From NCBI RefSeq assembly GCF_900105765.1, contig NZ_FNTX01000001.1:310001-374000 (forward strand): a stretch of 64,000 bases of DNA, read 5' to 3'. Positions within the stretch are counted from its first letter, which is position 1. Each line of letters begins with the position of its first letter. Under the pieces are notes generated by a model. It worked only from the letters and a program-made list of their open reading frames with translations. It did no database searches and had not been told where the DNA came from. Shown here piece by piece: positions 5,272 through 64,000 of this stretch. Position numbers and translations under genes: made by a program. This stretch comes from Ruania alba. GTDB taxonomy: Bacteria; Actinomycetota; Actinomycetes; Actinomycetales; Beutenbergiaceae.

Positions 5272-5679
5272 ATGCCTCCCAAGACTCGCCAGGCGACCGC
5301 CGCGCGCAAGCCGCGCCGCAAGGAGAAGAAGAACGTCTCCGCAGGAAACGCCTACATCAAGTCCACGTTCAACAACACCATCGTCTCCATCACGGACCCG
5401 TCCGGCGCCGTGATCTCCTGGGCTTCCTCCGGCCAGGTGGGCTTCAAGGGGTCGCGCAAGTCGACCCCGTTCGCGGCTCAGCTCGCCGCCGAGGCTGCTG
5501 CGCGCAAGGCGCAGGAGCACGGAATGAAGAAGGTCGACGTGTTCGTCAAGGGCCCGGGTTCCGGTCGTGAGACCGCAATCCGGTCGCTGCAGGCCACCGG
5601 CCTGGAGGTCGGCTCCATCCAGGATGTGACGCCGCAGGCGCACAACGGGTGCCGCCCGCCGAAGCGCCGGCGCGTCTGA
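5272..5679 (+). CDS. rpsK: 30S ribosomal protein S11
   Basis: 135 residues with the S11 core: [17 protein letters not shown], the [14 protein letters not shown] motif and the C-terminal PPKRRRV. S11 forms part of the 30S platform. The lysine-rich N-terminal extension is usual in actinobacteria. The next gene is rpoA, not rpsD, so the S4 gene must lie elsewhere in the genome. A short hairpin follows at 5709-5736. Confidence 0.98.
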
Positions 5680-5708
5680 GCCTGACGGCTCCACACTCGC
5701 AGCAGGAC

Positions 5709-5736
5709 CCCCTCGTCCGGACCGATGGGCGAGGGG
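5709..5736 (+). terminator. weak hairpin between rpsK and rpoA
   Basis: CCCCTCG (5709-5715) pairs with CGAGGGG (5730-5736) around a 14-base loop and is followed by TTTG. It could partly attenuate transcription into rpoA. The stem is only 7 bp and there is no U-run, so function is uncertain. Confidence 0.35.
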
Positions 5737-5783
5737 TTTGCGCACGGCGTCATATAGCGGACGCCTGCTGAAAGGACACACCC

Positions 5784-6788
5784 GTGCTCATTGCACAGCG
5801 CCCCACGCTCACCGAGGATGTCGTCGACGAGTACCGCTCGCGCTTCGTCATCGAGCCCCTCGAGCCCGGCTTCGGGTACACGCTCGGCAACTCGCTGCGG
5901 CGGACCCTGCTCTCCTCCATCCCTGGCGCGGCCGTGACCAGCATCCGCATTGACGGCGTGCTGCACGAGTTCTCCACCATCGCCGGGGTGAAGGAGGACG
6001 TGACCGAGATCATCCTCAACATCAAGAACATCGTCGTCTCCTCGGAGAACGACGAGCCGGTCGTGATGTACCTGCGCAAGCAAGGCCCGGGTACGGTGAC
6101 CGCCGCTGACATCACCCCGCCGGCGGGTGTTGAGGTGCACAACCCCGATCTGCACATCGCCACCATCAACGCCAAGGGCAAGCTCGAGATCGAGCTGACC
6201 GTGGAGCGTGGCCGCGGATACGTCTCGGCGGCGCAGAACAAGGCCTATGACGCGGAGATCGGCCGGATCCCGGTGGACTCGATCTACTCGCCGGTGCTGA
6301 AGGTGACCTACAAGGTCGAGGCCACCCGTGTCGAGCAGCGCACCGACTTCGACAAGTTGATCGTGGATGTGGAGACCAAGCGTTCTATCGACCCGCGCGA
6401 CGCGCTTGCCTCGGCGGGCAAGACGCTGGTCGAGCTCTTCGGTCTCGCTCGTGAGCTGAACGTCGAGGCCGAGGGGATCGAGATCGGTCCGTCACCGACC
6501 GACTCGGCCCTGGCGGAGGATCTCGCGCTGCCGATCGAGCAGCTGGACCTGACCATCCGGTCCTACAACTGCCTCAAGCGTGAAGGCATTCACACCGTGG
6601 GCGAGCTCGTGGCTCGCAGCGAGGCGGACCTGCTCGACATCCGCAACTTCGGTGCGAAGTCGATCACCGAGGTGAAGGAGAAGCTGGTGGGTCTCGGACT
6701 GTCCCTCAAGGACAGCCCCGCTGACTTCGACCCGACGCTCGTGGCCAGCGCGTACGACGACGGCGACGACTTCGACGCCTACAACTGA
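5784..6788 (+). CDS. rpoA: RNA polymerase alpha subunit
   Basis: 334 residues. The N-terminal dimerisation domain carries the [17 protein letters not shown] motif near residue 35, and the C-terminal DNA- and activator-binding domain is [13 protein letters not shown] followed by [19 protein letters not shown]. Alpha dimerises to nucleate RNA polymerase and its C-terminal domain contacts UP elements and activators. The GTG at 5784 fits the family start and has AAAGGA upstream. rplQ follows after 36 bases, as in most bacteria. Confidence 0.98.
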
Positions 6789-6824
6789 GCCGCGCGGCCC
6801 ATCACAAGAAACTGAGGAAACATC

Positions 6825-7403
6825 ATGCCTAAGCCCACGAAGGGTCCTCGCCTCGGTGGCGGACCGGCGCACGAGCGGCTGATCCTGGCCAACATGGCGC
6901 AGTCCCTGTTCGAGCACCAGAGCATCACCACGACCGAAGCGCGCGCCAAGCGCCTCCGGCCGCTGGCGGAGCGCCTCATCACCAAGGCCAAGCGTGGTGA
7001 CCTGCACGCTCGCCGCCAGGTGCACGCAGTCCTCTCCCGCAAGGACATCGTCCACGTGCTGTTCGCGGAGATCGCCCCCGCCATGGCTGAGCGCCAGGGT
7101 GGCTATACCCGGATCACCAAGGTTGCCCCGCGCAAGGGCGACAATGCTCCGATGGCTGTGATCGAGCTCGTCATGGAGCCGGTGAGCCCGAAGCAGGCCA
7201 CGGTTGCCGAAGCCGAGGCCGCTGCCAAGCGCGCGGTCAAGGAGAGCGCCGCGGCCGAGGAGACGGTCGTGGAGTCGGAGGACACCGCGGACCAGGTCGA
7301 GGAGACCGAGGAAGTCACCGACGACGCCGCGGCCGAGTCCAGCGATGAGGTCGAGGCCGAGTCGACCGACGGCGACGCCGCGGAGTCCGAGGACTCCAAG
7401 TAA
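6825..7403 (+). CDS. rplQ: 50S ribosomal protein L17 with acidic C-terminal tail
   Basis: The first ~120 of 192 residues are L17: [19 protein letters not shown], the [18 protein letters not shown] helix, and [19 protein letters not shown]. The remaining ~70 residues are a low-complexity Ala/Glu/Asp/Ser tail, well beyond the ~120 residues of E. coli L17; such tails are common in actinobacterial L17. L17 binds 23S rRNA near the exit tunnel. It is the last gene of the cluster and is followed by a strong terminator. Confidence 0.97.
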
Positions 7404-7462
7404 GACCGTCCTCCATGTGAGGACACCAGGTGCCGCAGACCCGAACGGTGTGCACACCTGAC

Positions 7463-7502
7463 GAAGGGCCCGTCCCGGGATGACCTCCCGGACGGGCCCT
7501 TC
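7463..7502 (+). terminator. rho-independent-type terminator after rplQ
   Basis: GAAGGGCCCGTCC (from 7463) pairs with GGACGGGCCCTTC (to 7502) across a short loop, with extra G-C pairs inside. It lies 60 bases after the rplQ stop. No U-run follows, which is normal in high-GC actinobacteria. Confidence 0.85.
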
Positions 7503-7517
7503 GCCGTCCCCAGTGGT

Positions 7518-7529
7518 TACAGTGCACAG
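7518..7529 (+). promoter_or_regulatory. -10 box for a leaderless mRNA (alpha/beta hydrolase)
   Basis: TACAGT at 7518-7523 matches TANNNT and is followed by exactly 6 bases and the ATG at 7530. No ribosome-binding site precedes the ATG. This spacing would make the ATG the first transcribed codon. Confidence 0.6.
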
Positions 7530-8237
7530 ATGTCCACCACGGTGCTGCTCGTGCACGGGATCCGCAGCTCACGCACCATGTGGCGCCGGGTCGCGCACGA
7601 GCTCCGCGGCGCCGGAGTTGCCTCCATCGCGGTCGATCTCCCCGGACACGGACAGCGGATGGGCGAGACGTTCAGTCTGGCCGCCTGCGAGTCCGTGCTC
7701 GATGAGACCGCCCGCCGGGCCGGTGGTCCGGTGCTGGTGGTCGGGCTGTCATTGGGCGGGTACCTGGCGTTGCACTGGGCGGCACGAACGTCATTCCCGG
7801 TCCAGGGCGTTCTCGCTGCCGCGTGCAGCACGCGACCACGAGGTGTGCCGCTTTCCGGGTACGAGGCTGTGGCGGGCCTCATCGCACACCTTCCCGATCA
7901 CGGGATGAGATTGCACCAGGTGATGAGTCGGTGGGCCCTCGGCGCCGAGGGAGCCCGTGAGGCGTCTGACGGCGGTGTGGCCCTGGACGTCATGGGTCCC
8001 GCGCTACGTGCGATGCACGCGGTCGATCCCTTGGCGGACCTGGCCCGCCTGAGGGTGCCCGTCTGGGTGGTGAATGGCACGTGGGACCATTTCCGGCTGG
8101 AGGAGCGACGCTTCGTCGCGGCCGCCCGCGTGGGCCGCCTGGTGCGGGTGCGGCGTGCCGGGCACATCATCACCGCCGATCAGCCACAGGTCTTCGCCCG
8201 ACTGACGCGGTCCTTCGTGCGCGCCGTGCAGCAGTGA
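7530..8237 (+). CDS. alpha/beta-fold hydrolase
   Basis: 235 residues with the hydrolase plan: VLLVHGIRSSRTMW (oxyanion region), the nucleophile elbow VVGLSLGGYLAL with Ser74, a late acid in VVNGTWDHF and the catalytic His in RRAGHIITAD. The substrate is not evident; esterase, lipase and haloperoxidase-like members share this fold. It stands alone between the rplQ terminator and a convergent ROK kinase, with stops 3 bases apart, in the place where many actinobacteria have truA directly after rplQ. Start ATG 7530, see the leaderless promoter. Confidence 0.85.
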   Translation: MSTTVLLVHGIRSSRTMWRRVAHELRGAGVASIAVDLPGHGQRMGETFSLAACESVLDETARRAGGPVLVVGLSLGGYLALHWAARTSFPVQGVLAAACSTRPRGVPLSGYEAVAGLIAHLPDHGMRLHQVMSRWALGAEGAREASDGGVALDVMGPALRAMHAVDPLADLARLRVPVWVVNGTWDHFRLEERRFVAAARVGRLVRVRRAGHIITADQPQVFARLTRSFVRAVQQ

Positions 8238-8240
8238 TCC

Positions 8241-8999
8241 TCAGCTCGGTAGCGACCAGACGCGGACCCCGCCGATGATGCCTGCACTGTTCGGCACGAC
8301 CACCACATCGTCACCGAGGCGTTCGAGCACAGCGGGCACCACGCGTCGCGAGTTACCGCCGCCCAGGTACAGCCGGTCCCAGAGATAGACCGGCCGCAGA
8401 GCTTCCACCACGCGCCGGATCCGTCGCGACCACATGGCGTCCCCGAGCCGTAGGCGCTCGTGCTCGCCGATGTACTCGTCGTAGGTCAGCCCCCACCGGA
8501 CCGGGCCCTGGGAGAGCTCCTGGTGCGGGGCGAGCACACCGCCGTCGAACAGCGCATTGCCGAGTCCGGTACCGAAAGTGAGTGTCAGCTCCAGGCCGGC
8601 ACCGGCGATGACGCCGGCTCCGTGCACCTCGGCATCGTTGAGGACCATCGCCGGTCGTTCGAGGCGCTGGGACAGGGCCGCACGCATATCGAAGCCGGAC
8701 CAGGCTGCCACCAGGTCAGGCAGCACGCGTGTGCGGGGACCTGACTTGGTGATGTAGTGCGGCGTGGTGACGACCACACCGTGCCGGATCATCCCGGGCA
8801 TCCCCACTGTCACCCGGCCGGCCGGAGGCAACTGGTCGGCGAGATCGGCGATCACTGCGAGCAGACGTTCCGGAGGCAGTGGGTAGGGCGTCGCTGTGCG
8901 TACCGGCTGCGCGTGCATGGTGCCGGCCGCGTCGAGCACGGACGCCTTGATACCACCACCGCCGCAGTCGACGGCGAGCGTGGCGGGAGTCTCGTGCAC
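8241..8999 (-). CDS. ROK-family sugar kinase, polyphosphate-glucokinase-like
   Basis: A 252-residue ROK protein. It has the phosphate-binding loop DCGGGGIKASVLD at the N-terminus, LTFGTGLGNALFDGG in the centre and YLGGGNSRR then SAGIIGGV at the end, an arrangement like actinobacterial polyphosphate/ATP glucokinases. The catalytic segment reads LNDAEVHGAG, where those enzymes usually have NDAD; the preceding catalytic Asp is kept. The ROK zinc motif is absent, as in polyphosphate glucokinases. Glucose as substrate is inference. The GTG at 8999 was chosen because a -10 box sits 6 bases upstream; a GTG at 9017 is the alternative. Confidence 0.85.
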   Translation of the reverse strand: MHETPATLAVDCGGGGIKASVLDAAGTMHAQPVRTATPYPLPPERLLAVIADLADQLPPAGRVTVGMPGMIRHGVVVTTPHYITKSGPRTRVLPDLVAAWSGFDMRAALSQRLERPAMVLNDAEVHGAGVIAGAGLELTLTFGTGLGNALFDGGVLAPHQELSQGPVRWGLTYDEYIGEHERLRLGDAMWSRRIRRVVEALRPVYLWDRLYLGGGNSRRVVPAVLERLGDDVVVVPNSAGIIGGVRVWSLPS

Positions 9000-9005
9000 G
9001 GTGGC

Positions 9006-9011
9006 ACTGTA
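9006..9011 (-). promoter_or_regulatory. -10 box for a leaderless mRNA (ROK kinase)
   Basis: On the minus strand TACAGT (9011 to 9006) is followed by 6 bases and the GTG at 8999. It is the same hexamer and spacing as the hydrolase promoter at 7518. There is no ribosome-binding site. Confidence 0.55.
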
Positions 9012-9047
9012 CGCCACTGGCGCGAACGGATGTGATGGACTGGGACA

Positions 9048-9911
9048 GTGCCCGAACACGTGAACACACCCACGATCCGCATCCGGCTCGACCTTGGATA
9101 CGACGGGACGGAGTTCTCCGGATGGGCCGCCCAGCCTGGACGTCGCACGGTCGAAGGCGAGCTCGCCGCCGGGATGGCGCGGGTACTGCGGTTGCCGTCG
9201 GTGCGCCTCACCGTGGCGGGGCGTACTGACGCGGGGGTGCACGCACGTGGCCAGGTGGTCCACGTGGATCTGCCCGAGCAGGCATGGGCTGCAGCGCCGG
9301 GGCGTAGTGACCGCACGCCCGGGGTCGCCCTGGTGCATCGGCTCGCGGCCGTCCTGCCGAGGGACATCGTGGTGCGTCACGCCGAGCGCGCACCAGACGG
9401 GTTCGATGCCCGCTTCTCGGCGATCTGGCGCCGCTACGCCTACCGGATCGCCGACGACGCCCAGCACCGCGATCCGCTCACCCGTGCCTGGGTGACCTGG
9501 CACCGGAGGACGCTCGACGTGTCCGCCATGGACCTCGCTGCGCAACTGCTCCTCGGCGAGCACGACTTCGCCGCCTACTGTCGTCCCCGGGAAGGGGCGA
9601 CCACGATCCGCACCCTCCTGGATTTCCGGTGGTCCCGCGATGAGCACGACCTGGCGGTCGCACACGTGCGTGCGGATGCTTTCTGCCATTCCATGGTGCG
9701 TGCCCTGGTCGGGGCGAGCCTCGCCGTCGGGGAGGGCAGACGTGAGGTCTCGTGGCCTGCAGAGGTCTTACGCGCCGGGGTACGGGATTCGGCCGTCGGC
9801 GTCGCGCCTGCGCGCGGGCTCGCCCTGGAGGAGGTGCGATATCCCGACGACGCCCGGCTCGCCGAGCGGGCTCGTACGGCTCGATCGGTGCGCACCCTCC
9901 CACCGACGTGA
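9048..9911 (+). CDS. truA: tRNA pseudouridine(38-40) synthase TruA
   Basis: 287 residues with TruA hallmarks: RLDLGYDGTEFSGWAAQPGRRTVEGEL, the catalytic Asp in VAGRTDAGVHARGQV, RRYAYRI, and FCHSMVRALVGA near the C-terminus. It makes pseudouridine at positions 38-40 of the anticodon stem-loop. The gene is divergent from the ROK kinase with under 50 bases between starts. GTG 9048 is used; a GTG at 9060 would also fit. Confidence 0.96.
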   Translation: MPEHVNTPTIRIRLDLGYDGTEFSGWAAQPGRRTVEGELAAGMARVLRLPSVRLTVAGRTDAGVHARGQVVHVDLPEQAWAAAPGRSDRTPGVALVHRLAAVLPRDIVVRHAERAPDGFDARFSAIWRRYAYRIADDAQHRDPLTRAWVTWHRRTLDVSAMDLAAQLLLGEHDFAAYCRPREGATTIRTLLDFRWSRDEHDLAVAHVRADAFCHSMVRALVGASLAVGEGRREVSWPAEVLRAGVRDSAVGVAPARGLALEEVRYPDDARLAERARTARSVRTLPPT

Positions 9912-9945
9912 GTGGCAGGACTCCCACGCTGTCACGGGTCCGCGG

Positions 9946-10335
9946 CTAGGAGGGGTCGTCCTCGATGTATGGCCGGTCGACGTCGGAGGTGATATGCATG
10001 GCCGCCTCCTCAGCGCCTGCACCGCCACCCGCTATGCCGACGTCCCTCGCATCGACATCGGCTCCTGCTTCAAGACGACCTGCCCGGTCCGGTTGCCGGG
10101 AGACGGACGGCGCGCTGGAATCGTCCGGCTCCTCCTGCGCGAGGCGCTCCTCGAGCGGCTCGCCCTCGATCTCTTCCCTGCTGGTCTCGCCCCACCGGTG
10201 GTTGTGCGGTCGATCCGGTGGCGAGTAGCCCTCGTCGAGGATGTCGTCGACGCCTCGATCGAGCAGCGTGTCCTCCTGAGGCAACTGGTTGGAGTCGGGT
10301 TCCGGACCCTGGGCCCCGCCGTCGATCGTGCTCAT
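9946..10335 (-). CDS. DUF5709-type acidic protein
   Basis: 129 residues, hydrophilic and rich in Asp/Glu, no signal peptide or membrane segment. The segment DTLLDRGVDDILDEGYSPPDRP followed by a conserved Trp-Gly (HRWGETSREEIEGE) is typical of DUF5709 proteins, which are common in actinobacteria and have no assigned role. The start is ATG 10335, preceded by CAGTCT and 6 bases, a near-match to the leaderless layout seen elsewhere in the window. It is convergent with truA and divergent from rplM. Confidence 0.75.
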   Translation of the reverse strand: MSTIDGGAQGPEPDSNQLPQEDTLLDRGVDDILDEGYSPPDRPHNHRWGETSREEIEGEPLEERLAQEEPDDSSAPSVSRQPDRAGRLEAGADVDARDVGIAGGGAGAEEAAMHITSDVDRPYIEDDPS

Positions 10336-10431
10336 CTGTCCAGACTGGCACGCGCGTGCTCCCTCCGCACGATGAGCAGGTGCGCCGGCTGGGGAGTGAC
10401 GCAGATCGCGTGGGGAGCAGGGCTCTACGCT

Positions 10432-10461
10432 TTGACCGCTGCGGTCGGCGCACAGTACTCT
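10432..10461 (+). promoter_or_regulatory. sigma-A-type promoter of rplM-rpsI
   Basis: TTGACC (10432-10437), an 18-base spacer and TACTCT (10456-10461). A second -10-like TATGCT lies at 10480-10485. The distance to the rplM GTG leaves a leader of about 170 bases, enough for ribosomal autoregulation, although no specific structure was identified. Confidence 0.7.
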
Positions 10462-57597: not shown

Positions 57598-57682
57598 GGA
57601 GCGCTCTGCTCCGGCGTGCTCATGTCGCTCGAACCGGTGGAATACTGGCGCGTGGCAGCGACCGCCCGACGACGGAGCAGTG

Positions 57683-59074
57683 ATGACGCAGGAGATCGAG
57701 TACCGCATCGAGCACGACACGATGGGTGAGGTGAAGGTCCCGAAGAACGCCACCTATCGGGCGCAGACCCAGCGAGCGGTGGAGAACTTCCAGATCTCCG
57801 GCAGCGGGATCTCCCGCCACCACATCGCCGCGCTCGCGCACATCAAGCGTGCCGCGGCGCAGGCGAACGCCGAGCTGGGGGTGCTGGATGAGGCTCGCGC
57901 GCAGGCGATCGGCGCCGCCGCGGACCGCGTGATCGCCGGTGAGTTCGACCACGACTTCCCGATCGATGTCTTCCAGACCGGCTCGGGCACCTCCTCGAAC
58001 ATGAACACCAACGAGGTGATCGCCACCCTCGCCAGCACCGAGGCGCTGGACGTGCACCCGAACGACCACGTGAATGCCTCGCAGTCCTCCAACGACACTT
58101 TCCCCGCTTCGATCCACATCGCCGCCACCCAGGCCGTGATCGAGGAGCTGCTGCCCGGGCTGGACACACTGGCCCGATCGCTGGAGGCGAAGTCCGACGA
58201 GTTCGCTGCCGTGGTCAAGTCCGGCCGCACGCACCTGATGGACGCCACGCCGGTGACGCTCGGTCAGGAGTTCGGCGGGTACGCCCAGCAGATCCGCAAC
58301 GGGATCGACCGGGTGAACGCCGCGCTGCCGCGGCTGGCTGAGCTGCCGCTGGGCGGGACCGCGGTGGGCACCGGGATCAACACCCCGCCCGGGTTCGCCC
58401 CCCGGGTGATCGAGCTGATCGCCGAGCGCACCGGGCTGCCGCTGACCGAGGCGCCGAACCACTTCGAGGCCCAAGGGGCGCAGGACTCTCTGGTGGAGAC
58501 CTCCGGTCAGCTGCGCACGATCGCGGTCTCGTTGGTGAAGATCTGCAACGACATCCGTTGGATGGGTTCCGGCCCGCGCACCGGTCTCGGCGAGATCGCC
58601 CTGCCCGACCTGCAGCCGGGTTCGTCGATCATGCCCGGCAAGGTGAACCCGGTGATCCCAGAGGCCACCCTGATGGTCTCCGCCCAGGTGATCGGCAACG
58701 ATGCTGCGGTCGCGTTCGCCGGAGCCTCCGGTTCGTTCGAGCTGAACGTGATGCTGCCGGTGCTCGCCCGGAACAGCCTGGAGTCGATCACTCTGCTCGC
58801 GAACGCCTCGACCCATCTGGCTACCAAGTGCGTGGACGGGATCACCGCCAACACCGAGCGCGCGCTCCAGCTGGCCGAGTCCTCACCCTCGATCGTCACC
58901 CCGCTGAACCGGCACATCGGGTACGAGGCGGCCGCGAAGATCGCCAAGCACTCGGTGGCCGAGGGCATCACGATCCGGCAGGCCGTCGAGGACCTCGGGT
59001 ACGTCGAGCGGGGCGAGATCACCACCGAGGTGCTCGATCAGGCGCTCGACGTCTCCACGATGACGCACCCCTGA
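57683..59074 (+). CDS. fumC: fumarate hydratase, class II
   Basis: 463 residues: [72 protein letters not shown] and the signature [11 protein letters not shown] with the catalytic Ser. It interconverts fumarate and malate in the citric acid cycle. ATG 57683 has GGAG at 6 bases; GTG 57680 is the alternative. Its last 192 bases lie opposite the 3' end of the wecB frame. Confidence 0.97.
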
Positions 59075-60196
59075 TTCCATCGGTTCGCCCTGCCCGGCGC
59101 CGATCAGGCGCATCGTGGCCGCGACGATGTGCTCGGCCGCGCGGCGGTCACCGTACGGGCTGGCCGTTGCACGCAGCCGCTGAGGAAGTCCTGAGTCGGC
59201 CAGGAGCCGCTGCGCCACGACGCTGATGCCGGGGCCGGGTGGTACCAGGTGCGCAAATCCGGCGTCCACCGACTCGGGACGTTCGGTGGAGTTGCGGACG
59301 ACGATCAATGGCTTCTTCAGCACGGTGCACTCTTCCTGCAGGCCACCGGAATCGGAGACCAGCAACACGCAGCCGCTGGCGGCGGCGAGGAACTCCGCGT
59401 GCCCGAGCGGACCGGTGACGGTGAGGGGGTCGCTCAGATGCTCCAGGCGGTGCCGGGCGAGGAGGGCGCGGGTGCGGGGGTGCAGGGGGAGGAGGACCGG
59501 TAGCCCGATCCGGGCGAGCTGATCCAGGATCACCTCCAGCCGCGCGGGGTCGTCGGTGTTCTCCGGCCGATGGATGGTGGCGAGGACGAAGTCGCCGGCC
59601 ATCCACTGCCGCCCGGCGATGGCGGGGGCCCACCGCTCGAGCATGCGCTCGACGGAGGGCACGATCGTGTTTCCGGTCAGGACGATCCGCTCGGCCGGCA
59701 CTCCTTCGGCGCGCAAGTTCTGCACGTTGTGATCGGTGGCGGCGCAGTGCAGGTCGGCGAGCGCGCCTACGAGGAGCCGGTTCAGCTCTTCCGGCATGGC
59801 CCGGTCGTGGCTGCGCAACCCGGCCTCGACGTGGATCAGGGGAATGCCGTGGTAGCTGGCCGCCTGGGCACCGGCATTGGTGGAGTTCGTGTCTCCCTGC
59901 ACGATCACCGCGGCCGGGCGCTCAGCCGTGAACAGGTCATCGAGCTGGCCGAGGCTGACGGCGATCTGCTGCGTACGGGTGCGACCGCCCACGCCAGTGA
60001 GCACGGTCTCGGGCGCCCGGAGCCCGGCCCCGGTATAGCAGTCGTCGGCCAGGTTCGCGTCGTAGTGCTGGCCGGTGTGGATCACCCACGCCCGCCTGCC
60101 CAGCTCCCGGATCACCGGGGCCAGCTTGATGATCTCCGGTCGGGTACCGAGCACGACGGCGATCCGGCCCGGGGGTGTGGACGTTGCGGTGGTCAT
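58883..60196 (-). CDS. wecB: UDP-N-acetylglucosamine 2-epimerase, non-hydrolysing, with extended C-terminus
   Basis: 437 residues. The first ~370 are Wec[58 protein letters not shown] and [21 protein letters not shown]. It makes UDP-ManNAc for surface glycans. The frame runs on ~65 residues past the normal end, antisense to the 3' end of fumC; those residues (from about [13 protein letters not shown]) look like antisense sequence, not a domain. Start ATG 60196. It follows the surface-protein gene after a strong hairpin, and probably supplies or modifies sugar for the same glycan. Confidence 0.9.
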
Positions 60197-60238: not shown

Positions 60239-60277
60239 GCACCGCCGGGCGGGTACTGGGAACCCGCCCGGCGGTGC
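60239..60277 (-). terminator. hairpin between the surface-protein gene and wecB
   Basis: A perfect 16-bp stem (60239-60254 with 60262-60277, core CACCGCCGGGCGGG) and a 7-base loop. It stands 12 bases after the surface-protein stop. It may end the exosortase operon or reduce read-through into wecB. Confidence 0.8.
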
Positions 60278-60289
60278 GGCTTGGGTGGG

Positions 60290-61324
60290 TCAGGTGGGCG
60301 TCTGGCCTGCGCGCTGCCGGCGGCGGAGCAGGAGACCGCTGCCGAGGACCAGGGCGAGCGCCCCGGCACCGATCCCGGCCTGCGCCGAGACGATGGACGC
60401 CCCGGCCTCGGGTGGAGTGAAGATCGGGTAGACGTCGTTGGACGGATCGTTGCCTTCCCAGCCCGCCGGGAACGCGATCGTCTGGGCGAATACCTGCGTG
60501 TCGGGGGGAGTGCCTCCCGCCACTGCGTAGCCGATATTCGTGGAGCCGATGACGTCGCCCTGGTCGGCGTGCCCGGTCCCGGTGACGGTGCAGCTGATGT
60601 CGGTGGTGGTCACCTGGCAGCTGCCGATGCCCGTCTCGCCGTTGATGTAGACGGTGTTGGTGCCAGCGTTGAACGACCCGCCATTCATCGCCTGGTCGGT
60701 GATCGTCATTCCCGGCCCGTAGTCGCAGCCCTCTGCCGAGAGGCAGGTGAAGGCGACGTCGTAGTACGCGGTCCTTCCCGGCTCCATCAGGCCGCTGCCG
60801 GGCTTGCCCCAGTCGCCGGACCCCGTCTCGGGACCCACCACAGTGATGGGCACCGTGTGGCTGTCGTTCGCCGGTTCCGGATCCTCAGGGACGACGACAT
60901 GGGCCGCGGTGATGACGTCGGTGCCGGGTGCAAGGCCGGTGACGGTCATGATCGCGCTGAAGGTGAACCCGGCACCCAACCCGGTGCCGGTACAGGTGAC
61001 AATTCGTCCGTCCACGGTGCACTCGCCCTGAGGCGAATCGACGCCCTCAAGAACCGGATCGGGCGCGATGATGTCGGGCAGAGTGATGGTCTGGGTCCAG
61101 TCCCCGCTGTCCACGGTGCCGCGGTTGAACACGTTGACGTACACAGTTCCCTCGCCGCCAACCTCCACAGGATCGGTCACGAAAGTCGTTTCCGACTCCA
61201 GGTCGGTGGGGTCAGCAGCCTGCGCGGCCGGGGCGGTGACGGAGCCGATCCCGAGCGCCAGGACCGCTCCGGTCAGTACGGTCAACGCCCGCCTGGCTCC
61301 GTGTTGGTGCGTTCGTGCATTCAT
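60290..61324 (-). CDS. secreted surface protein with C-terminal anchor, likely exosortase substrate
   Basis: 344 residues. A signal peptide (basic N-terminus, hydrophobic core, APAAQA with cleavage near Ala36) leads to two DUF11/CARDB-like beta domains (VFNRGTVDSGDWTQTITLPD, and the second around YYDVAFTCLSAEGCDYGPGMTITDQ) with Cys pairs that could form disulfides. The C-terminus has a short Pro/Gly/Ala linker (TPPEAGAS), a membrane helix (about 316-333) and RRRQR. There is no LPxTG or PEP motif; the tripartite tail is nevertheless of the kind removed by sorting enzymes. It stands 21 bases after the exosortase gene. AGAGG precedes ATG 61324. Confidence 0.85.
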   Translation of the reverse strand: MNARTHQHGARRALTVLTGAVLALGIGSVTAPAAQAADPTDLESETTFVTDPVEVGGEGTVYVNVFNRGTVDSGDWTQTITLPDIIAPDPVLEGVDSPQGECTVDGRIVTCTGTGLGAGFTFSAIMTVTGLAPGTDVITAAHVVVPEDPEPANDSHTVPITVVGPETGSGDWGKPGSGLMEPGRTAYYDVAFTCLSAEGCDYGPGMTITDQAMNGGSFNAGTNTVYINGETGIGSCQVTTTDISCTVTGTGHADQGDVIGSTNIGYAVAGGTPPDTQVFAQTIAFPAGWEGNDPSNDVYPIFTPPEAGASIVSAQAGIGAGALALVLGSGLLLRRRQRAGQTPT

Positions 61325-61345
61325 CAGTGATTCCTCTCCCTTGGG

Positions 61346-61909
61346 TTATCCGAGGTGCGGTGCCGGCCGGTGCCGACCCGTCGGTGAGGCCCCGGCGATC
61401 TTCAGGAAGACCATCGCCGCGACGACGAAGCCGGCGATCGCGAAGATCGAGCCGATGACGGTGTGACTGAGCGCGTAGCCGTCCATGCCCCAGCGCTGCA
61501 GGGAGACGGCGATCATGGCGAGGCGGAGCTGGTTCACCGCGACGATCAGCACGAGCGCGAGGGCGAGGCCGGTGACCAGGCGGTGCCAGGGGATCCGCGT
61601 CAGGGCCAGCAGCACCGCACCGATCCCCAGCAGTGGCCCGGCGAGCAGGGCGACGGTGCACTCCCACGTGTTCCGCAGCCCGATCAGCTCGCCGCCGGTC
61701 CAGGAGAAGTAGATGGCATCCCGGTTCGTGTGCGTCGATCCGGCCAGCACCAGGTCGAACCAGGTGCCGGCCAGACTCATCTCGCCGTAGCGGACCTGTT
61801 GCTGCCAAAAGAGCATCGCGGCGGCCGCGCCGAGCAGCACCAGCGCGGCGGTGATGCGGACGAGCCTGCGCCCGAGCGGGTAGTCGCCGGACGTCGTGGG
61901 TGCGCGCAT
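61346..61909 (-). CDS. exosortase/archaeosortase-family transpeptidase
   Basis: 187 residues, mostly membrane helices. The family triad is visible and correctly spaced: Cys84 in NTWECTVALLAGP, Arg129 in AVNQLRLAM and His149 in YALSHTVIG. Exosortases cleave C-terminal sorting signals outside the membrane and are usually linked to exopolysaccharide synthesis. They are rare in actinobacteria compared with proteobacteria; the subtype cannot be named here. AAGGAGG lies 9 bases before ATG 61909, inside the end of the glycosyltransferase gene, whose stop is 4 bases upstream. The surface-protein gene follows. Confidence 0.82.
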   Translation of the reverse strand: MRAPTTSGDYPLGRRLVRITAALVLLGAAAAMLFWQQQVRYGEMSLAGTWFDLVLAGSTHTNRDAIYFSWTGGELIGLRNTWECTVALLAGPLLGIGAVLLALTRIPWHRLVTGLALALVLIVAVNQLRLAMIAVSLQRWGMDGYALSHTVIGSIFAIAGFVVAAMVFLKIAGASPTGRHRPAPHLG

Positions 61910-61913
61910 CGGT

Positions 61914-63266
61914 TCATGCCTCCTTGGCGGTCGCGCCGACGGTGAGGTTCTCCCCGTTCCGGCGCGTCTTGGCCCAGCCACCGCGCCGCAAGGCGATGCG
62001 GACGAACGCCCGGGTGACGGAGACGTACATGTAGTAGATGTAGAGCCACAGGCCGAGCCCCCAGAGGATCGACTGCCACCGGGTGGCCCGCGGTTCGCAC
62101 GTCGCGCGGTAGATCGGTCCCCACATGGCGAACGGGGCGACGCTCATCAGGAAGAACAGCGCGAGCAGCCACCACGAGCTCGCCAGCCAGTTCACGACCC
62201 CACCCGGTACCTGCAGGGTCCCGCTCACGGTGAGCACCGCCAGCGTCGGCCACAGGAACAGGCCGAGCATCTGGATGAACGGCAGCATCAGGTAGTACCC
62301 GGACTCCAGGACTCCGCCGGAGGTGAAGTGTGGTGACCGCACGATCTGCGGCAGGTACTTGATGCACTGGATGTTTCCCTGCGACCACCGGGTGCGTTGG
62401 GTGAACAGTCGCTTGAGGTCCGTCAGCCCCTCCTGGGAGACGTAGCTGTCGGCCACGAACCGGATCTCGTGGCCGGTGAGCAGCACATGCACACCGAGCT
62501 CGAAATCCTCCAGCAGGGCGCCGTGCCACGGCCGCCCCGCCTGGGTGGCGATCGCGTCGAGCACCGTCAGGCGGGTGAACTGACCGTTGCCGCCCAGTCC
62601 GACGCTGCGGGTCTGGGTGCGTAGGGCCTGCATCGCACAGATCGAGGTCCGGAACTCGATGTCCTGCATCCGCACCAGGTACCGGGATAGGGCGTTCGCG
62701 GCCCGCCCCTTGCTCGGCCGGGGTCGGTGATCGTCGCGGTTGCGCATCTGTACCGAGATTTGTGCGGCACCCACGCGTGGGTCGCCGAAGACCTTCGTCC
62801 CCGCGACGTGGTCCAGTGCGTCGCCCGCCATCTGTCCGTCCGCATCGACCACGCACACGATCACCCGGGTGCGGTCACAGCCGGCCGGAAGGAACGCGTT
62901 CAGGCGGTGGTAGGCGGAGTTCAGCGCGTCTCCTTTTCCGGTGCGGGCGTGCGGACGGCGCCGCTGCACCAGGTGCACCATCGGGTCGGTCGCAGCCCGG
63001 GAGCGCACCACGTCCGCGGTGGCGTCGTCACTGTCGTCATCGATCACCCACACGTGTGCGCCGGCGAAGGTGGCGCGAAGGCGATCGATCGTGGCGCCGA
63101 TGACCACGTCCTCGTCCCGGCACGGAACGAACATGTGCCACTCGAACGCCTCCGCATCGCCGGGCTGGTCCGGCAGGCGGCGAAAGAAGGCCCGGGCGAT
63201 CGTGGCCAGGTAGGACAGGAACGTCACCACGATCACCAACGAGATGCCGATCAGGAGTGAACCCAT
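61914..63266 (-). CDS. processive family-2 glycosyltransferase
   Basis: 450 residues. An N-terminal membrane helix leads to a GT-A domain with the D,D,D,QxxRW pattern: DDDSDD (76-81), DAD (141-143), LEDFE (Asp254) and QRTRW (290-294). At least four C-terminal membrane helices follow. This is the plan of cellulose, hyaluronan and poly-GlcNAc synthases, which polymerise and export a beta-linked glycan. The sugar is unknown; nearby wecB suggests N-acetylhexosamine. ATG 63266 shares its A with the stop of the 50-residue gene upstream, so translation is coupled. Confidence 0.9.
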   Translation of the reverse strand: MGSLLIGISLVIVVTFLSYLATIARAFFRRLPDQPGDAEAFEWHMFVPCRDEDVVIGATIDRLRATFAGAHVWVIDDDSDDATADVVRSRAATDPMVHLVQRRRPHARTGKGDALNSAYHRLNAFLPAGCDRTRVIVCVVDADGQMAGDALDHVAGTKVFGDPRVGAAQISVQMRNRDDHRPRPSKGRAANALSRYLVRMQDIEFRTSICAMQALRTQTRSVGLGGNGQFTRLTVLDAIATQAGRPWHGALLEDFELGVHVLLTGHEIRFVADSYVSQEGLTDLKRLFTQRTRWSQGNIQCIKYLPQIVRSPHFTSGGVLESGYYLMLPFIQMLGLFLWPTLAVLTVSGTLQVPGGVVNWLASSWWLLALFFLMSVAPFAMWGPIYRATCEPRATRWQSILWGLGLWLYIYYMYVSVTRAFVRIALRRGGWAKTRRNGENLTVGATAKEA

Positions 63267-63418
63267 CAGTGCTCGACCCGCTTCAGATGTGCGGTGCGGA
63301 CGAGCAGCAGACCGGCGATGATCACCACGAGCGCCACCAGCAGGTAGAACCCGGTGGCGACACCGGTGTAGGCGAGGGCGGCAGTTGCGCCGATCCCTGG
63401 CCCTCTGCTCGCGTACAT
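63266..63418 (-). CDS. 50-residue protein consisting of an LAxTG-type sorting signal
   Basis: The frame has an in-frame TAG 10 codons before ATG 63418, so the protein is truly short. Residues 1-14 are a polar, Gly-rich head. Residues 15-19 are LAYTG, matching the LAxTG motif of class E sortases. Residues 20-40 are a hydrophobic helix and 41-47 a basic tail (RTAHLKR). There is no N-terminal signal peptide. AAGGAG lies 14 bases before the ATG, rather far. It heads the glycosyltransferase-exosortase operon. It could be a membrane microprotein, a sortase substrate or a subunit of the synthase. Confidence 0.75.
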   Translation of the reverse strand: MYASRGPGIGATAALAYTGVATGFYLLVALVVIIAGLLLVRTAHLKRVEH

Positions 63419-63516
63419 GAGCTGCTGTGTCTCCTTGCGTATCTAACGTCCACGGCCGGCGCCCTCGCCGACCAGTCCTTCGGTCAGCTCACGGTGGCAA
63501 GGCACCGACGACGTCG

Positions 63517-63577
63517 GGTCACCGCGCGGTCACCGGCACGCACACCCCGGTCACCGGGCGGTCAACAACGGGTCGGC
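63517..63577 (+). promoter_or_regulatory. SARP-type operator, direct heptamer repeats
   Basis: GGTCACC at 63517-63523 and 63528-63534, GGTCACC at 63549-63555, GGTCAAC at 63560-63566 and GGTCGGC at 63571-63577. Starts are 11, 21, 11 and 11 bases apart. Heptamers with 4-base spacers are the known form of SARP binding sites. They lie between the divergent operon and the SARP gene. Confidence 0.7.
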
Positions 63578-63633
63578 CACGCCGCCGGCACCGCCCGGCA
63601 GCACCTCGAACTGCCCCCTGCCCACTCGCCCCT

Positions 63634-63651
63634 GGTGACCCGGCGGTGACC
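63634..63651 (-). promoter_or_regulatory. second SARP-type operator in the opposite orientation
   Basis: On the minus strand GGTCACC reads at 63651-63645 and 63640-63634, again 11 bases apart with a 4-base spacer. It points toward the exosortase operon. TACGCT at 63672-63677 is a -10 candidate for the SARP gene on the other strand. Confidence 0.65.
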
Positions 63652-63775
63652 GAGGGAGCCAGCGGCCCGGCTACGCTGACGGCCGGCGACCGGCGCGGCG
63701 ATCGTGCCGATGACGATCCGTGGAGGGAGCAGGGGCCGGCTCAGCGAGCGTGCGAGTGAGTACCCCGGACAGCGA

Positions 63776-64000
63776 ATGGTGCGTATCGATGTGCTCGGCC
63801 CGCTCAGGGTCACCTCCGGGCGGCGGCCGGCCGACATCGGCGGACAGCGTGTGGAACTGCTCGCCTGGCTCGTGATGCACGCGAACCGCCCCCTTCCGAT
63901 CGGCGAGGTCTCGCGCATGCTCGGCGATGGCGCTCGCCACGGCACGGCCCCACAGGTCCGGATTCAGTTGCGCAGGTTGGCGGTCGCACTGCCCAACGGC
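63776..64000 (+). CDS. SARP/BTAD-type regulator, N-terminal part only
   Basis: 75 codons to the window edge. MVRIDVLGPLRVTSGRRPADIGGQRVELLAWLVMHANRPLPIGEVSRML is the typical OmpR-like winged helix that opens SARP regulators. It should be followed by a bacterial transcriptional activation domain outside the window. ATG 63776; the adjacent GTG 63779 would also do. Divergent position and matching heptamer repeats suggest that it controls the glycosyltransferase-exosortase operon and perhaps itself. Confidence 0.85.
   Translation, partial: MVRIDVLGPLRVTSGRRPADIGGQRVELLAWLVMHANRPLPIGEVSRMLGDGARHGTAPQVRIQLRRLAVALPNG

Follow-up and report, generated by a model that had tools for sequence, protein, structure and literature searches.

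A stretch of 64,000 nucleotides from Ruania alba (contig NZ_FNTX01000001.1, positions 310,001 to 374,000), referred to here as the window, was analysed for an exosortase locus close to its right-hand end. Exosortase-type protein anchoring is known mainly from microbes other than actinobacteria. Four leftward genes on the minus strand form a compact operon at positions 60290-63418 of the window. In order of transcription these encode a 50-residue protein (SMALL, 63266..63418), a glycosyltransferase (GT, 61914..63266), a 187-residue exosortase-family protein (Xrt, 61346..61909) and a secreted protein that is the probable substrate of Xrt (SEC, 60290..61324). The overlap between SMALL and GT is 1 nt, 4 nt separate GT from Xrt, 21 nt separate Xrt from SEC, and a further gene, wecB, follows SEC after 93 nt. 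An earlier note on the same DNA had read four packed leftward genes here, and they were found at the coordinates it gave. The same gene order was observed in both other genomes of the genus that bear Xrt and, without wecB, in Occultella, and the core of the set was found again across Actinomycetota. Chance as the origin of the operon was ruled out because the set recurs in other genomes. Among the best 80 of 275 GT relatives the closest named ones were those of Candidatus Ruania gallistercoris and Occultella gossypii, and the genome of the window groups with Ruaniaceae.

Xrt scored 39.7 bits against TIGR04178, the model of the exosortase/archaeosortase family, at a cut-off of 23 bits. It fell beneath the cut-off of every named subtype tried, XrtS being the best (114 against 145 bits) ahead of XrtP (80.6 against 200) and XrtR (76.9 against 150); the XrtS cut-off was passed by one Arthrobacter relative (176 bits) and one Curtobacterium relative (183 bits). 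The exosortase assignment made in the earlier note was accordingly upheld by TIGR04178 but not by the Pfam model Exosortase_EpsH (PF09721), against which Xrt reached 19.6 bits at a cut-off of 25.7. As a search of the same genome with PF09721 at an E-value of 0.001 returned no match while TIGR04178 did retrieve Xrt, the coverage of the Pfam model is too narrow for this case. Cys84 (61658-61660), Arg129 (61523-61525) and His149 (61463-61465), which we take to be the catalytic residues of the family, lie where the note had placed them and are retained in 50, 53 and 50, respectively, of 53 Xrt sequences. Xrt would on this assumption act catalytically. The AlphaFold 2 (AF2) model of Xrt, with a predicted local distance difference test score (pLDDT) of 93, contains long helices at residues 12-34, 36-54, 86-103 and 108-173, and judged by these predicted helices and by hydrophobicity as read from the protein, Xrt is a multi-helix membrane protein. 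A search of the PDB with the Xrt sequence gave one match, to an unrelated protein, at an E-value of 0.059.

GT exceeded the cut-off of NF053846, the 'XrtP-associated glycosyltransferase' (glyco_with_XrtP), with 651 against 520 bits and scored 78.5 bits against PF13641. Hydrophobic segments are present at its N- and C-terminus, and the motifs DDDS, DADG, ED and QRTRW are invariant in the GT alignment, a set that presumably marks a processive-type enzyme of glycosyltransferase family GT2. The product may be an aminosugar chain, with which WecB as a 2-epimerase would fit.

A signal peptide can be recognised by eye in SEC, for which two beta-rich regions are also predicted. It scored 20.3 bits against DUF11, under the cut-off of 24.6, and its AF2 model was of low confidence (pLDDT 63). 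A hidden Markov model (HMM) of SEC C-termini located a sorting-like signal at 60290..60418 (minus strand), composed of TPPEAGASIVSAQ, a hydrophobic stretch and RRR. Across the loci described below, the C-termini of SEC mostly follow the form [small]-P-[VILM]-[VIA]-[DSNA]-x, helix, RRR, which resembles other exosortase signals. No NCBIfam family, PVV-CTERM and CoaP included, matched the SEC of the window at an E-value of 0.1; at the same threshold a scan of 20 SEC proteins returned PVV-CTERM for 5, CoaP for 2, choice-of-anchor G for 5 and choice-of-anchor P for 3.

SMALL begins with Met-Tyr and carries the motif LAYTG at residues 15-19 (63362..63376, minus strand), followed by a single hydrophobic helix and a basic tail. 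The family alignment gave the pattern Met-Tyr, Gly-rich stretch, L[AP]xTG, helix and Arg. By reading, SMALL has the L[AP]xTG motif, helix and basic tail of a sortase substrate of the LPXTG type, and a separate N-terminal signal peptide was not seen by eye, the 14 residues ahead of the motif containing no hydrophobic stretch. SMALL scored 27.2 bits against NF058583 (LAXTG_small), under the cut-off of 65 bits; at an E-value of 0.1 this model was matched by 18 of 28 aligned SMALL proteins, that of the window included. These features suggest a membrane partner with a motif of the class E sortase type, possibly oriented with its N-terminus outside.

Co-occurrence of the locus parts

A scan for GT in a collection of 84,980 species returned 275 relatives. 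The best 80 of these, together with the locus of the window and one further locus (L035), make up 82 loci, which are not independent of one another. Loci L036-L038 and L040-L050 stand outside the 82, being duplicates, short or, in the case of L038, derived from a separate search. Xrt was found in 53 of the 82 loci, and in 51 of these 53 the frames of GT and Xrt are overlapping or separated by at most 16 nt. The Xrt-positive loci held SMALL in 49, the SEC signal in 45 and a wecB-type gene (>150 bits) in the flank in 39 of 53 cases, with wecB within 200 nt of GT in 17. The corresponding numbers for the 29 Xrt-negative loci were 3, 0, 27 and 26. GT, Xrt, SMALL and the signalled secreted protein hence travel together, so that the reading of the earlier note withstands the co-occurrence check it had proposed, and the counts indicate that wecB and GT are a wider pair onto which Xrt, SMALL and SEC have been added as a further layer.

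An exosortase in the company of every such GT was rejected as no match to TIGR04178 was found anywhere in the 29 Xrt-negative genomes. A wider Xrt alignment of our own (A6) likewise gave 0 of 29, scoring being capped at 101 first-look candidates in 27 of the 29, and recovered all five controls, among them the degenerate Xrt of L064 and L067.

Within the genus, Xrt was found in 3 of 8 genomes; the same three have a GT over cut-off, a strong SMALL, a strong SEC signal and the locus wecB, and the other five have none of these. Scores against the SMALL profile were 60-62 bits in the three Xrt-positive genomes and at most 34 bits in the others. This profile holds the sequences of the window's own genome and of G007, and G003, which is outside it, scores as high. 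The SEC-signal HMM gave one strong match (60-68 bits) per Xrt-positive genome and at most 28 bits elsewhere; it holds the rows of the own genome and of G003, and here G007 is outside and scores as high. In the class, TIGR04178 matched 12 of 394 genomes, and a search anchored on Xrt found a GT of >300 bits in the locus of 9 of the 12, with weaker GT2 matches in L041 and L044. An untrained filter for a helix plus RK gave just two hits in Xrt-negative loci (L109 and L122), neither resembling the SEC signal, and SEC hits in frames of 31-47 residues (L057, L104, L115 and L125) were discarded as chance.

The motif L[AP]xTG was found in 45 of the 49 SMALL proteins of Xrt-positive loci, three being without it and one being cut by a contig end, and all 48 readable ones begin with MY from ATG, GTG or, once, TTG; both frequencies are biased upward because detection started from the pattern [MVL]Y plus L[AP]xTG, proceeded with an HMM built from those matches and was completed by eye.

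Co-loss of the parts was observed in a single lineage. In L064, L065 and L067 (from an isolate of Microbacterium oxydans and from two relatives; about 9350-9856) the Cys of Xrt is changed to Ser and the His to Leu, and a stretch before Cys84 is missing. These loci have neither SMALL nor SEC and have kept GT and wecB; in the near relatives L068 and L070 all parts are present. The only other Xrt-positive locus devoid of both SMALL and SEC is L062, in which the Xrt residues are kept and about 0.7 kb of the contig beyond GT is available. In L071, a metagenome-assembled genome (MAG) of the same Microbacterium clade, no Xrt match was found in the locus stretch or the genome, and GT is kept. As all this took place in one lineage, the decay of Xrt in Microbacterium represents about one or two events.

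The association was evaluated further on the GT tree, where Xrt changes 4 (4-5) times compared with a shuffled mean of 24. Over four independent pairs on this tree, the average number in which intact Xrt was accompanied by SEC was 3.3, and by SMALL 2.0, and the reverse was seen in 0.0 and 0.1. Partial Mantel tests were performed on 26 loci, namely the 45 complete ones minus near-copies. Distances between SEC signals followed those of Xrt beyond GT (0.25, p 0.0002). For SMALL the correlation with Xrt beyond GT was 0.33 (p 0.0002), and that with GT beyond Xrt was slight at 0.11 (p 0.06). Partial Mantel tests tend to overstate significance.

Several loci of unusual composition were observed. Arthrobacter sp. 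AZCC_0090 carries the set twice, at separate loci (L066 and L075), and GT, Xrt, SMALL and the SEC signal are present in both. The Streptomyces part of L091-L130 has the wecB-GT pair and no exosortase and could show the glycan alone. L038 (G016, 5674-10437) has a GT over cut-off at 557 bits and no TIGR04178 match, with a wecB-type gene and, by eye, a UDP-sugar dehydrogenase-like gene nearby. L106, a contig filed under a Saccharibacteria MAG, has a GT, a wecB-type gene and a motif-less small MY protein, through either horizontal transfer or mis-binning. At L048:1114-1818, in the 68%-complete genome G173, a single open reading frame covers both Xrt and a SMALL with LPYTG; this one case may be a natural fusion or a sequencing error.

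The flanking epimerase gene, hairpin and regulators

wecB (58883..60196, minus strand) encodes a non-hydrolysing UDP-GlcNAc 2-epimerase that scored 284 bits against TIGR00236 at a cut-off of 210. The earlier note had placed it beyond a hairpin, where it does lie, but outside the range of 60290-64000 that the note had assigned to the locus. Matches to wecB were found in all 8 genomes of the genus, two in each of the three Xrt-positive ones, at the locus and at another site (one of those in G003 ending at a contig edge); among the five Xrt-negative ones three have one and two have two, one of these a fragment. The locus copies share 76-77% identity with wecB of the window and the best copies of the five Xrt-negative genomes 37-40%, the second copy of G002 being left out, which indicates that the locus wecB goes with the set. 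A fumarase-like gene (57680-59074, plus strand, by eye) meets wecB tail to tail with an overlap of 192 nt (58883-59074), so that the last 60 or so residues of wecB lie antisense to it. This antisense overlap accounts for the apparent similarity between wecB and the fumarase region in L035 and L036.

The hairpin itself (60239..60277, minus strand) was confirmed as a GC-rich 16-bp stem between SEC and wecB, with a free energy of -50.1 kcal/mol, a z-score of -6.0 and no T run. It was found again after SEC in L035, L036 and L037, the three other Ruaniaceae loci, with weaker z-scores of -2.3 to -4.7; these include Occultella, where wecB is absent from the available stretch. The hairpin is probably a transcript end or stabiliser, and termination or protection of a transcript of the four genes is more likely than a link between that transcript and wecB. 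Consensus scans gave no promoters and two terminator-like sites, close to the shuffled mean of one.

The divergent SARP gene (63704..64000, plus strand; alternative ATG at 63776) that the note had seen proved real and is cut by the edge of the window. In the genome it encodes 250 residues (226 from the alternative ATG) and is followed by a second SARP-type regulator of 1105 residues with BTAD and AAA domains. BTAD was matched in both with 65.5 and 68.5 bits at a cut-off of 22.1; the 99 residues within the window by themselves matched no Pfam family. SARP genes were found at 4 of the 82 loci, all of them Ruaniaceae and divergent (the contig of L051 ends inside the first SARP), and with this number a SARP as part of the system beyond Ruaniaceae was rejected. 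Control of the operon by SARP is plausible, in Ruaniaceae only. LuxR-type regulators were present near three other loci examined.

Proposed mechanism and rival explanations

The proposed mechanism starts with the locus WecB, which would feed GT, and with GT, which would build an aminosugar chain at the membrane. SEC would be exported by means of its signal peptide and retained by its C-terminal helix. Xrt, acting as a Cys-Arg-His transpeptidase, would then cut SEC near the motif before this helix ([PS]-[IM]-[VA]-S in Ruaniaceae), and Cys84 would pass the new C-terminus on to an acceptor, for which the glycan of GT and WecB or its lipid carrier is the most plausible candidate. The outcome would be one adhesin-like protein and one glycan displayed together. 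SMALL may serve as a single-helix partner with its N-terminus outside, in which case LAxTG would let a class E sortase of the host fix it to the wall; in the part of the family that has lost the motif only the membrane role would be left. We assign a probability of about 0.5 to this reading as a whole, that is to Xrt as a transpeptidase joining SEC to an acceptor, plausibly the WecB/GT glycan, with SMALL as its membrane partner. What was observed is the family membership, the operon and its conservation, the co-occurrence of the parts, the conserved residues and the co-loss in one lineage; the catalytic role of Xrt, the cleavage site, acceptor, sugar, SMALL topology and the attachment of SEC to the glycan are inferred.

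Precedents exist for such steps. Cleavage by the archaeosortase ArtA has been modelled as proceeding through the active-site Cys as in a sortase, with attachment to a lipid (PMC7157517). The C-terminus of cargo proteins of the type IX secretion system (T9SS) is joined to a sugar of the Wbp pathway, and the authors speculate on a modified sugar as an acceptor of exosortases too (PMC7468200). In other bacteria, exosortases and PEP-CTERM proteins help to keep exopolysaccharide on cells (PMC12188702).

A number of observations weigh against this reading. Foldseek with the Xrt model gave no matches at an E-value of 0.001, and a sequence search of the PDB with GT gave no solved structure at 1e-5. 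GT also occurs apart from exosortases: 29 of the 82 loci, mostly of Streptomyces, have GT without Xrt, 27 of them with wecB; conversely a wecB-type gene is absent from the available flank of 14 of 53 Xrt-positive loci, Occultella included. The SEC of the window reads A-S-I-V-S, with Ser where nearly all relatives have Pro, which speaks against a strict motif; its three Ruaniaceae relatives have the Pro (G-P-M-V, A-P-I-A). The SEC-signal HMM was trained on 27 C-termini that all come from Xrt-positive loci, and the signal was not found in 8 of the 53, three of which have a degenerate Xrt and two of which are loci of about 10 kb. The SEC signal follows GT (0.24, p 0.0008) nearly as strongly as Xrt, and with only 4-5 Xrt changes the tree test cannot reach significance.

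Other acceptors and substrates were considered on the same evidence. Were the acceptor a membrane lipid, as proposed for ArtA, Xrt would lipidate SEC and the glycan would be a separate product that SEC merely binds. Lipid attachment and phospholipid-synthesis genes have both been connected with ArtA (PMC7157517), and the occurrence of GT without Xrt in 29 genomes suits a separate glycan. The constant neighbour of Xrt is however the glycosyltransferase, adjacent in 51 of 53 loci, and no phospholipid-synthesis gene was noticed in the neighbourhoods viewed, where no search was aimed at such genes, so that a lipid acceptor is possible but rather doubtful. It is more improbable that SMALL, and not SEC, is the main substrate of Xrt, which would recognise L[AP]xTG and ligate a short Gly-rich N-terminal peptide to the glycan. 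SMALL is found in 49 of 53 Xrt-positive and 3 of 29 Xrt-negative loci, its distances follow Xrt and hardly GT, and in L048, outside the 82, the two share one frame. Cutting by Xrt at LAxTG is nevertheless argued against by LAxTG-bearing SMALL proteins in L101 and L108, two genomes that gave no exosortase match, and by three loci of two lineages (L054 in one, L119 and L123 in the other) in which the three Xrt residues are kept and the SMALL motif is lost. A sortase that could act on the motif was moreover matched, class unassigned, in 34 of 34 Xrt-positive genomes tested, which cover 35 of the 53 Xrt-positive loci including three with degenerate Xrt.

If that sortase were instead the enzyme of interest, SMALL would be a class E substrate that fixes GT or its product to peptidoglycan, and Xrt would only free SEC from the membrane. 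LAXTG is the class E sortase signal in actinobacteria (PMC5148588), and besides the 34 genomes all 8 of the genus have sortase matches. As every genome tested has one, with or without Xrt in the genus, sortase presence does not discriminate and is not decisive on how LAxTG is handled; 12 of the 45 motif-bearing SMALL proteins have LPxTG in place of LAxTG, and mere release of SEC leaves the constant GT unexplained. We regard this explanation as unlikely. That Xrt is a degenerate membrane protein acting as a mere scaffold for GT would agree with the three Microbacterium loci that retain a degenerate Xrt beside GT. Yet 50 of 53 sequences, that of the window included, retain Cys and His, and exactly the loci that lost the residues are without SMALL and SEC, L062 aside, which makes a scaffold very improbable.

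The reading in which Xrt joins SEC to the glycan can be extended. The host sortase might attach SMALL to peptidoglycan, and SMALL might serve as primer or tether of the GT chain to which Xrt joins SEC; the Xrt/SEC pair of the window would be a fourth actinobacterial subtype beside XrtP, XrtR and XrtS. We consider this unlikely; if true, wall, glycan and adhesin would be one covalent structure and two unrelated anchoring chemistries would operate in one locus. What bacterial exosortases use as acceptor is an open question, the acceptor being called an unidentified compound in PMC7468200. A locus this small, with a single enzyme, a single likely substrate, a single GT and no outer membrane, would make the question directly testable. 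The Microbacterium series of intact Xrt, Xrt without Cys and His, and no Xrt is a ready natural comparison. The conserved MY..L[AP]xTG micropeptide is a second part that is still without explanation.

Comparison with known systems

The earlier note had held this composition to be undescribed, which was not wholly borne out. NCBIfam already names GT, XrtP, XrtR and XrtS, LAXTG small proteins, PVV-CTERM and choice-of-anchor proteins, meaning that curators at NCBI have named most of such a system, and an XrtG system of Firmicutes has been published (PMC12854382). Among the matches listed in the open-licence literature we found no study of an actinobacterial exosortase at the bench, and no open-licence paper was found on PVV-CTERM, choice-of-anchor G/P, LAXTG motif-containing or XrtP-associated proteins, nor one that brings together two of XrtP, XrtS, XrtR and exosortase.

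The locus resembles the NCBIfam XrtS, XrtP and XrtR systems (NF033767, NF012139, NF012138 and, for GT, NF053846) in its small exosortase type and its GT family; it differs in that Xrt is beneath all three cut-offs and SEC is without an NCBIfam family. The XrtG system of Lactiplantibacillus plantarum combines XrtG, a Firmicu-CTERM protein and two glycosyltransferases (PMC12854382) and shares with the window an exosortase, a GT and one C-terminally signalled protein in a Gram-positive host. On the XrtG model, however, Xrt reached 16.0 against 102.75 bits and on TIGR03111 GT reached 13 against 363.95, and no SMALL of the MY..LAxTG type is named in the part of that paper available. The PEP-CTERM/EpsH systems likewise have an exosortase beside polysaccharide genes and a signal of motif, helix and basic residues (PMC12188702). 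SEC in contrast has no PEP motif, each Xrt-positive genome of the genus has one strong signal match, beside the enzyme, and Xrt is below the Pfam EpsH cut-off. SMALL resembles proteins anchored by class E sortases at LAXTG in its L-A-Y-T-G, helix and basic tail; the differences are that only 14 residues precede the motif, without a separate hydrophobic N-terminal stretch, and the position of the gene inside an exosortase operon. The T9SS sortase is an enzyme unrelated to exosortases. It offers a likeness in linking a C-terminus to an aminosugar (PMC7468200), but belongs to a Gram-negative system and is a precedent for the acceptor only. Set against these systems, the locus, whose main parts the earlier note had read correctly, is a variant below the named subtypes and not a system of a new kind.

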